Origin: Paracoccaceae bacterium
GTDB lineage: Bacteria; Pseudomonadota; Alphaproteobacteria; Rhodobacterales; Rhodobacteraceae
Assembly (NCBI GenBank): GCA_013214635.1
Contig: JABSSC010000048.1
Location: 1 to 33,467 of the forward strand
Reading direction: 5' to 3'
Length of the DNA: 33,467 nucleotides
The translations under genes were made by a program, and so were the position numbers. Position 1 is the first letter of the stretch. Each line of letters starts with the position of its first letter. Positions 9,062-31,824 of the stretch are shown here, in pieces. The notes beneath the pieces were generated by a model. It saw nothing but the letters and a program-made list of their open reading frames with translations. It did no database searches and was not told the origin of the DNA.

Positions 9062-9094
9062 CCGGGGACACTGAGGTGTCCCCGGCTTTCGTTT
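9062..9094 (+). terminator. Rho-independent terminator after gltB
   Basis: Perfect 10-bp stem CCGGGGACAC / GTGTCCCCGG with TGAG loop (9062-9085), followed by CTTTCGTTT. It lies 30 bases after the gltB stop and before the lipoprotein gene. Confidence 0.85.
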
Positions 9095-9140
9095 GGGGCG
9101 ACGCATAGACCAGAAAACTATGAAAACATTGGAGGTTTTG

Positions 9141-9512
9141 ATGCGACCGAAGTTCTTGATTGCCCTGCCAACTGCCGCATTCCTGGTGGCCTGTGCGAAT
9201 TCCGGTTCAAGCTACGTGCCGATAATCGACGGTCCGGTTGGACCGAACTTCAATGTTGATCTCGCCCAATGTCAGCAGATCTCGACCCAGCAAGGGGTCG
9301 TCGACGAAAGCACGGCATCAACGGCGGCAACGTCTGCGGTCGCGGCGGGTGCCGCGGCGGCCATCATCGACAATTCCGGCAATAACGCGCTTGATGCCGC
9401 GATTGCGGGTGCTGTGATTGGCGGGGCGGCCAGCACGATCAACAACCGTCAGCAGCAAGAAGCGATCATTCGCAACTGCATGCGTGGACGCGGGTACAAC
9501 GTGGTCGGCTAG
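9141..9512 (+). CDS. Small glycine-zipper lipoprotein
   Basis: A 123-residue predicted outer-membrane or periplasmic lipoprotein. Residues 1-18 form a lipoprotein signal ending in the lipobox LVAC, with C18 as the acylated residue. The middle contains an alanine/glycine-rich segment with repeated small-residue spacing (AAGAAAAIIDN, AIAGAVIGGAAS), as in glycine-zipper families that pack within membranes. A Cys pair near residues 42 and 113 (LAQCQQI, RNCMRGRGY) may form a disulfide. ATG 9141 is chosen because GGAGG lies five bases upstream (9131-9135) and it starts the signal peptide cleanly; a longer frame from 9093 has neither. Biological role unknown. Confidence 0.75.
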   Translation: MRPKFLIALPTAAFLVACANSGSSYVPIIDGPVGPNFNVDLAQCQQISTQQGVVDESTASTAATSAVAAGAAAAIIDNSGNNALDAAIAGAVIGGAASTINNRQQQEAIIRNCMRGRGYNVVG

Positions 9513-29367: not shown

Positions 29368-30156
29368 CTAGAGATCGAACGTTGCAAACACCGGTGCGTG
29401 GTCGGATGGCTGCTCCCACCCCCGAACGTCACGGAGGATTCGGGAACTATGCGCCTTGTCTGCAATGTCCGAAGTGGCCCAGATATGATCGAGGCGGCGG
29501 CCCTTATCCGCTGCGCTCCAATCCTTGGCGCGATAAGACCACCAGCTATAAAGCAGACCTTCTGGAATATCCTTTCGGGTTACATCGATCCATCCACCGG
29601 CGTCTTGTGCCGCAGTCAGATGTTCCACCTCAATTGGCGTGTGGCTTACGATTTTTAAGAGTTGTTTATGACTCCAAACATCATCTTCACGCAGAGCGAT
29701 ATTCAGGTCGCCGACCAGAATTGAACGTTCGGGTTTATCGGATTTTGCCCAGTCCCGCATGTCTGTGAGGTAATCGAGTTTTTGGCCAAACTTCTCGTTC
29801 ACCGCGCGATCTGGCACGTCACCTCCGGCTGGAACATAAAAATTGTGAATCGTGACACCATTCTCAAGACGTGCTGCGACATGGCGTGCGTGACCGAGTG
29901 AAGCGAAGTCAAACTCTCCAGCATCTTCCAGGGGTAGTTTCGACAGGATTGCGACGCCATTGTAGCCCTTCTGACCGCGCGCGACGATGTGATCGTATCC
30001 CAACTCCGAAAACACTTCCGTGGGGATTTTTTCGACCGGAGACTTGCATTCCTGAAGGCAAAGAACATCCGGCGCCTCCTCCGACAGAAGCCGCGCCACC
30101 AGTTGGGCCCGCAACCGGACTGAGTTGATGTTCCAAGTGGCTAGGGTGAAGGGCAT
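29368..30156 (-). CDS. xth: Exodeoxyribonuclease III
   Basis: A 262-residue Mg-dependent nuclease of the endonuclease/exonuclease/phosphatase fold that cleaves abasic sites and removes 3' blocking groups in base excision repair. Motifs: ATWNINSVR (N10), LQECK (E36), the catalytic GDLNIA segment, and the C-terminal SDHAPV with catalytic His, in the family order. The start at 30156 (MPFTLATWN) is supported by GGAGA seven bases upstream; ten extra codons in frame reach to 30186. Length is normal. It is transcribed away from the ribA side, with the DUF924 gene 59 bases upstream on the same strand. Confidence 0.94.
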   Translation of the reverse strand: MPFTLATWNINSVRLRAQLVARLLSEEAPDVLCLQECKSPVEKIPTEVFSELGYDHIVARGQKGYNGVAILSKLPLEDAGEFDFASLGHARHVAARLENGVTIHNFYVPAGGDVPDRAVNEKFGQKLDYLTDMRDWAKSDKPERSILVGDLNIALREDDVWSHKQLLKIVSHTPIEVEHLTAAQDAGGWIDVTRKDIPEGLLYSWWSYRAKDWSAADKGRRLDHIWATSDIADKAHSSRILRDVRGWEQPSDHAPVFATFDL

Positions 30157-30215: not shown

Positions 30216-30869
30216 TTAACTGCCGTCCGGTGGACCGTGGACATGCGGAAAGTCACCCGCGGCGATATAGGCCTCTTCTTCAGGTGTTGAGACACGCCCA
30301 TAGATTGGATTGCGGTGAGGGTGCCGGCCGAAGGTTTCGATGTTCTTGCGCACTTTGGCGTGTTGGCCACGAAGCTGGTCCGCACTGAATGCCAGTTGTG
30401 GCGGCAAGTTCGGGATGATGCTTTCTTCCGTCAGCTTGTCGATCAAATCCATACGCGCCAGATGATCGGGGCCCTCGCAATGGCCTAGCGCGATAATGAA
30501 GAAAACTTTCTCCCACGGCTGGAGCGTCTCAAAGTGGCCATTCTCTACTCCTTCCAGCACAAGCAAGTTTGCCTTGCAGTCTTGGGCAAAGGCCGCCGGT
30601 GTATCGCGCCAGAGAGAGCGCGGAAACTGATCCAACGCGATCAACAACGCCAATCGCCCGCGCGGCGTGTCCGCCCAGTGATCCAGCAATCCTTGCGCTG
30701 CAGCGGTCGTCAGTTCGGCAAAATCGGCTTTGATTCTGGCGTCCATGCCATCTTGCATGCGCTGAAATATCCATTGACCAAAGGTTTCCCTGCTTTCTCA
30801 GAAGCCATCTTTTGGAAACCAGAAGTCCAAAACCTGTTCGGGATCAAAGTGAGTGTGCGCTTGGGTCAT
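30216..30869 (-). pseudogene. DUF924 family gene interrupted by one in-frame TGA
   Basis: Read from ATG at 30869, the frame gives MTQAHTHFDPEQVLDFWFP, continues KDGF, then a TGA at 30798-30800 (codon 24), and continues in the same frame ESRETFGQWIFQRM into a 180-residue run typical of DUF924 (LIALDQFPRSLWRDTPAAF, HRNPIYGR near the end). Family members carry the DFWF motif at the N-terminus, so both sides belong to one gene. TGG to TGA (Trp to stop) by one base would explain it. Without the first 37 codons the protein could still start at ATG 30758. Whether it is a true pseudogene, a read-through gene or a base error cannot be settled. Biochemical role unknown. Confidence 0.7.
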
Positions 30870-30904: not shown

Positions 30905-30933
30905 GAAAAAAAGCCCGGGCACAAGGCCCGGGC
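30905..30933 (-). terminator. Rho-independent terminator after the CenR-like gene
   Basis: On the minus strand, GCCCGGGC-CTTGT-GCCCGGGC is followed by seven Ts (plus-strand A-run 30906-30912). The 8-bp perfect stem and U-tract make a strong terminator for transcripts from the CenR-like gene and isolate the DUF924 gene, which begins 36 bases further on. Confidence 0.85.
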
Positions 30934-30994: not shown

Positions 30995-31681
30995 TCAAGC
31001 TACCAACCGATATCCACCTGATTCCGTAACAAGTAGACGTGCGTTAGACGGATCTGGTTCAATTTTTTGCCGAAGCCGGTAAATGTGTGTCTCAAGTGTG
31101 TGCGTTGTGACACCTGCATTATATCCCCAAACCTCATGCAGCAGCACATCGCGCGCCACGACGCCTTCGGTGGCGCGGTAGAGGAACTTCAAGATATTCG
31201 TCTCTTTTTCGGTCAGACGGATCTTCTTGTCGTCCTCGGTCACGAGCATCTTTTGAGCGGGTTTGAACGTGTAGGGTCCAAGCTGGAAAACCGCATCTTC
31301 GGACTGCTCATGCTGGCGAAGCTGCGCGCGGATGCGCGCCAAAAGAACAGGGAATTTGAACGGCTTAGTGACATAGTCGTTCGCGCCTGCATCAAGGCCA
31401 AGGATCGTGTCAGCGTCACTATCATGGCCCGTTAGCATCAGGATCGGACACTTTACGCCCTGCTTGCGCAAGAGGCGGCACAGTTCGCGTCCGTCGGTGT
31501 CTGGCAGGCCCACATCCAAAATAACGAGATCGTAAATGGCCGCCTTGGCCTTTTCCATGGCCTCTGAGCCATTGCCAGCTTCGAAGACGTCAAAATCTTC
31601 GGTCATGACAAGCTGTTCCCCCAGCGCTTCGCGCAGGTCGTCATCATCATCCACAAGCAGGATTTTCTTCAATTGGGCCAT
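30995..31681 (-). CDS. cenR: OmpR-family response regulator, CenR-like
   Basis: A 228-residue response regulator. The receiver has acidic residues D11-D13, phospho-acceptor D56 in LILDVGLPDTDGRE, T84 and K106; the C-terminal winged helix ends TESGGYRLVA with the conserved TTHTLETHIYRLRQKIE recognition region. This pattern matches the alphaproteobacterial CenR regulators of envelope genes, reported essential in Caulobacter and Rhodobacter; that identification is by remembered similarity. ATG 31681 has AGGAG ten bases upstream; the open frame to 31795 has no family support. No kinase gene is adjacent. Divergent from ribA across 143 bases. Confidence 0.82.
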   Translation of the reverse strand: MAQLKKILLVDDDDDLREALGEQLVMTEDFDVFEAGNGSEAMEKAKAAIYDLVILDVGLPDTDGRELCRLLRKQGVKCPILMLTGHDSDADTILGLDAGANDYVTKPFKFPVLLARIRAQLRQHEQSEDAVFQLGPYTFKPAQKMLVTEDDKKIRLTEKETNILKFLYRATEGVVARDVLLHEVWGYNAGVTTHTLETHIYRLRQKIEPDPSNARLLVTESGGYRLVA

Positions 31682-31824
31682 AATGGATCGCTCCTCGTCT
31701 GTCGTTGGGAACGAGATGCGCAATCGTGGCCTGTGCGACAAGGTTTGCTGCAATTCTCTCACGCGGTCGTGTCGGATGTGCGGGAAATGTTTCAAATTCC
31801 GGGGGTAAACGTTACATCGGGGGC

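Follow-up and report, generated by a model that had tools for sequence, protein, structure and literature searches.

The DUF924 gene at positions 30216-30869 (minus strand) of the window, that is, of the whole analysed stretch of 33,467 nucleotides from a Paracoccaceae bacterium, appears to be an ordinary interrupted coding sequence. The probable explanation, in our view, is a nonsense mutation of recent date, or else strain-level variation, converting a Trp codon to TGA at codon 24, with a probability of roughly 0.6. The observations behind this reading include the following: there is a single TGA, the frame is otherwise unbroken, and codon 24 is TGG in all eight other members of the gene's clade. 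Among the readings considered, a recent nonsense mutation is the most likely one, followed by a consensus error.

The gene, its frame and its surroundings

The features of the locus, all on the minus strand, are the following:

30995..31795, minus: response regulator gene lying upstream, its output domain of OmpR type (coordinates of the listed ORF, whose actual start is probably more internal)
30913..30933, minus: terminator-like hairpin with a T run between the response regulator and DUF924 genes, its end lying 43 bases upstream of the DUF924 start
30216..30869, minus: coding sequence of DUF924 (PF06041): 217 codons followed by TAA, with an interruption at codon 24
30801..30869, minus: first 23 codons, including the conserved VLDFWFP segment and a predicted helix at 10-17
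30798..30800, minus: in-frame TGA, codon 24 (TGG in 8/8 other members of its clade)
30529..30774, minus: out-of-frame 81-codon ORF, its ATG 23 nt beyond the TGA; Shine-Dalgarno match -4.6, slightly better than that of Met38
30756..30758, minus: Met38, an in-frame ATG inside the gene, whose Shine-Dalgarno match is weak (-3.1 kcal/mol)
29368..30156, minus: downstream exodeoxyribonuclease III gene (xth), ATG at 30156, Shine-Dalgarno match -6.6

The translation of 30216-30869 reads MTQAHTHFDPEQVLDFWFPKDGF*ESRETFGQW..., with a sole TGA at codon 24, and beyond the TGA the frame is open down to the TAA at 30216-30218. This bears out the sequence-only reading, which had described one in-frame TGA with a continuous frame on either side; the DFWF motif, the fit of a Trp in 'GF-W-ES' and the ATG at 30758 are also as it stated.

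With the TGA read as a residue, the protein scores 144.3 bits against Pfam DUF924 (cut-off 27) over residues 13-205, the profile match thus running through the stop. The AlphaFold2 model of the read-through protein (mean pLDDT 92.3; structure alignment made without rows L070, L109 and L113) has helices at 10-17 and 27-38. Its predicted fold resembles the solved DUF924 member 2i6h (Atu0120), with a VIA-align Z of 20.3 (174 residues aligned, rmsd 2.3, covering residues 5-205; next row Z 7.9) and a Foldseek E of 6.4e-08. As both flanks match one family in one frame, and as the N-terminal side carries L14, W17, F18 and P19, which are invariant in a 30-row alignment, the occurrence of the stop inside a DUF924 gene goes beyond chance. 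A search of NCBIfam with the read-through protein assigned no family, and a literature search on DUF924 / PF06041 found no paper within the limited collection searched. The genome, a draft assembly of 348 contigs (3.35 Mb, 96.5% complete), also holds a distant intact DUF924 paralogue at C317, 32% identical.

Seven distinct loci share the order regulator-DUF924-xth (L010, L025, L033, L034, L100, L102, L109), and in eight others (L035, L038, L043, L044, L047, L054, L105, L108) xth lies on the opposite side of DUF924; at most loci this comparison covered a flank of only about 1.5 kb. In L116-L120, five loci taken with wider flanks from the genomes that matched best, neither the regulator nor xth is a neighbour of DUF924. 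The best sequence matches sit in other neighbourhoods, and less similar ones keep the regulator-DUF924-xth order, a mismatch that may stem from genes having moved or been replaced at the DUF924 locus. Terminator-like hairpins are about as frequent in the region as in shuffles (2 found, 1.6 expected). Elsewhere in the window, a 139-codon ORF at 9093-9512, between the glutamate synthase and transglycosylase genes, has no Pfam match at E 0.001.

Codon 24 and constraint among relatives

The comparison set of 90 distinct relatives consists of the best 80 of 114 loci, with titles mostly from alphaproteobacteria, and the best 30 from a search of 295 genomes; contained duplicates were collapsed. The window's own copies (L002 and L083) were left out, as were three damaged relatives:

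L114, 2017-2637 (G055:C1:1551016-1551636), minus: second G055 copy, with an internal TAA
L055, 1501-2018: orthologue from a MAG whose frame shifts near residue 164, either genuinely or through an assembly error
L106, 1300-2100 (G020): orthologue lacking the family N terminus, its first ~33 residues replaced by a motif-less sequence and the remainder open and conserved

In the tree of the window protein and the 90 relatives (quick search), the window protein falls inside a clade of nine with SH-aLRT 98, together with L085, L004, L003, L014, L023, L016, L012 and L019. The sequence-only reading had suggested that one substitution at a Trp codon parts an intact gene from a broken one, and had proposed aligning the codon with that of close relatives. 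This alignment gives TGG in each of the eight, supporting the suggestion, and all eight also have an in-frame ATG upstream. TGA at codon 24 is seen only in the window's own copies, L002 and L083, the codon being unreadable in L106. Across the 90 relatives, the column contains W in 29, L in 15, E in 14, Q in 12, other residues in 20 and Cys in none, the distant rows being less surely aligned there. Judging from these alignments, Trp is the ancestral residue at codon 24 of the window's branch, yet dispensable across the wider family.

The subfamily itself is sparsely distributed. The search of 295 genomes of the same taxonomic family yielded, at E<=1.5e-49, 31 matches spread over 30 genomes, own genome included, and in a second, overlapping draw the subfamily was found in 23 of 389 genomes at E<=1e-45. 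Within the 389-genome relatives set there was no relative closer than G027 (71%); a plasmid search with the query from Met38 on returned 12 records, all below 60% and hence none above the 71% of G027.

The rest of the gene was compared with the relatives column by column. The window protein departs at one of 53 near-invariant columns, Gly40 to Asp; of the 90 relatives, 42 keep to every such column, 37 differ at one and 11 at two or more. The affected codon (30750-30752), 16 codons beyond the stop, encodes Gly in all 90 relatives. This change could be a hint of relaxed constraint, although 9 of the 90 relatives also break one or more otherwise strictly invariant columns, the window protein breaking one. 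Relative-rate tests of the window gene against L085 with seven outgroups gave p values of 0.19-1.0; it carried the larger number of private changes with five outgroups and the smaller number with one, with a tie for the remaining one, none of these differences being significant. In the quick-search tree its terminal branch measures 0.27, the median being 0.21.

The remainder of the gene thus presents no clear decay and little sign of it, from which it follows that the break is either young or not real. For a neutral copy, the chance of acquiring no second stop is about 0.34 after 5% divergence and 0.11 after 10%. A young break would itself show no relaxed constraint, and the lack of further decay fits an intact gene with one wrong base equally well.

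Explanations for the stop

If the nonsense mutation is real, a single-base change would have converted the Trp codon 24 to TGA in the sequenced population, and translation would stop after 23 residues. The remainder would be made at a low level only, through leaky UGA decoding by the normal tRNA-Trp or through weak re-initiation, and hence the DUF924 gene would be silent or nearly so. The untranslated stretch may in addition reduce xth transcription through polarity. A dispensable gene would explain why the loss is tolerated: the subfamily is missing from most of the relatives sampled (see the two draws above). Two other damaged copies, the second G055 copy with its TAA and the frameshifted L055, also speak for the mutation, as does another isolated in-frame stop in the same genome, described below.

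The strongest competitor is a base-calling or consensus error in the draft assembly, in which case the organism's codon is no stop and the gene is intact; this is a real possibility, though distinctly less likely than the mutation. Such an error would yield the same picture as a real nonsense mutation. The fragmentation of the assembly into 348 contigs is consistent with it, as is the normally constrained appearance of the rest of the gene, and in Mycobacterium smegmatis sequencing errors accounted for 28 of the 73 interrupted genes that were resequenced (PMC1852416). However, the assembly is not error-ridden: stops were found in 0 of 95 ABC-ATPase, 0 of 52 BPD_transp_1 permease-domain and 1 of 39 short-chain dehydrogenase matches of the own genome. 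In addition, the TGA at 30798-30800 lies outside any homopolymer run. Real interrupted genes usually outnumber substitution errors in short-read assemblies.

The sole stop among these 186 domain matches, a TAA, lies at around codon 28 in a short-chain dehydrogenase gene (L126, G000:C140, 272-859, minus strand). The fraction of 1/186 scales to some 30 interrupted genes genome-wide, though the interval is very wide, from about 1 to 180. Isolated in-frame stops are not unusual in this genome. The second of the two DUF924 copies of the subfamily in G055, a genome of one contig, provides a further case, its in-frame TAA lying about two thirds along the gene. Stops of this kind are also common in bacterial genomes according to the M. 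smegmatis study (PMC1852416).

Two further options of the sequence-only reading, an internal start and read-through, fare poorly compared with a recent nonsense mutation or a base error, which fit best. According to the former, ATG 30758 (Met38) is where translation starts, or where it resumes once the TGA has been passed, and the product is a functional short protein; this we hold to be unlikely. The ATG is in frame, and the resulting 180-residue product would still score 131.9 bits for Pfam DUF924. An equivalent ATG is kept in all seven relatives checked, its counterpart in L014 having a fair Shine-Dalgarno match (-7.1 kcal/mol), and the window's own full-length start is weak as well (-3.7). 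The G020 relative without the family N terminus (L106) matches only from residue 34. On the other hand, a product starting at Met38 would lose both predicted helices, 10-17 and 27-38 (bar residue 38), of a confidently predicted model that aligns to 2i6h from residue 5, well ahead of Met38, and would lack the invariant L14, W17, F18 and P19. The upstream in-frame ATG found throughout the clade also speaks against this option: in all six clade members scored it lies 35-37 codons upstream, with Shine-Dalgarno values of -4.0 to -11.2 kcal/mol. Met38 here has a weak one (-3.1), and for re-initiation it would face competition from the out-of-frame ATG nearer the stop (-4.6). Although L106 counts in its favour, an active short product from Met38 is unlikely.

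The least probable of the alternatives considered at length is useful read-through, where UGA would be read as Trp, perhaps in a regulated manner, sustaining a low level of full-length protein; we consider it very improbable. Leaky decoding of UGA by tRNA-Trp, a near-cognate reading described in PMC13092985, would insert the residue of the relatives, codon 24 being Trp throughout the nearest clade, and the frame downstream of the stop is still constrained. Against this, we found no sign of recoding at codon 24. Release factor 2 is present, with prfB of the own genome scoring over the cut-off. The tRNA-Trp(CCA) gene, absent beside secE and located via Rfam tRNA hits, has an anticodon stem of full five pairs, and there was no UCA anticodon among the 35 typed tRNA genes; these 35 include none for Ile, Asp or Tyr, so some tRNA genes are missing from the draft, perhaps a suppressor among them. 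The 61 bases from the TGA fold no better than shuffles (z 0.27), giving no recoding hairpin, and no relative with a readable codon carries TGA at this position. Hence, with the release factor and tRNA-Trp both ordinary, the read-through option finds little in its favour. Were the TGA nevertheless real and retained, tRNA-Trp leakage could conceivably yield a little, perhaps condition-dependent, full-length protein with the ancestral Trp, the stop serving as a volume control, a scenario to which we attach hardly any weight.

Three other candidates were rejected or found no support. Selenocysteine at codon 24, rightly dismissed already from the sequence, is rejected, as the best match of a SelB profile search of the own genome, 96.5% complete in assembly, reached 165.4 bits, below the cut-off of 242.25; the sole tRNA-Sec hit over the cut-off was typed as tRNA-Leu(taa) by ARAGORN; none of the 90 homologues has Cys in the column; and the hairpin is missing. 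A change of code to UGA=Trp is rejected, given prfB, the termination of 14 of the 22 window ORFs taken as genes by TGA, and no in-frame TGA within the 186 domain matches of three families in the own genome (one TAA). A special suppressor tRNA has no support, the tRNA-Trp being ordinary and a UCA anticodon being absent from the incomplete set of 35 tRNA genes found.

Returning to the nonsense mutation, we suggest that the DUF924 gene be annotated as interrupted, and neither as recoded nor as encoding a short protein. A real stop would be a further sign that the DUF924 subfamily is dispensable in these alphaproteobacteria.

Comparison with known systems

The window gene shares with 2i6h and the DUF924 family the all-helical fold and an over-cut-off profile match that continues through the stop. 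It differs in being broken at codon 24, and hence lacks the intact open frame, which is needed for a working DUF924 member although not for descent from the family.

UGA-to-Trp reassignment or read-through via a tRNA-Trp with a four-pair anticodon stem, which PMC13092985 ties to UGA reading, resembles the present case in that the stop stands at a Trp position. In contrast to that system, the genome here has a 5-bp stem and RF2, and TGA ends 14/22 of the window genes examined.

The closest likeness is with the interrupted coding sequences of Mycobacterium smegmatis, 94 in number (PMC1852416), which display the same lone in-frame stop in a conserved frame and the same ambiguity between mutation and error. 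There is no difference in kind; in the present case, the relatives reveal the ancestral codon.
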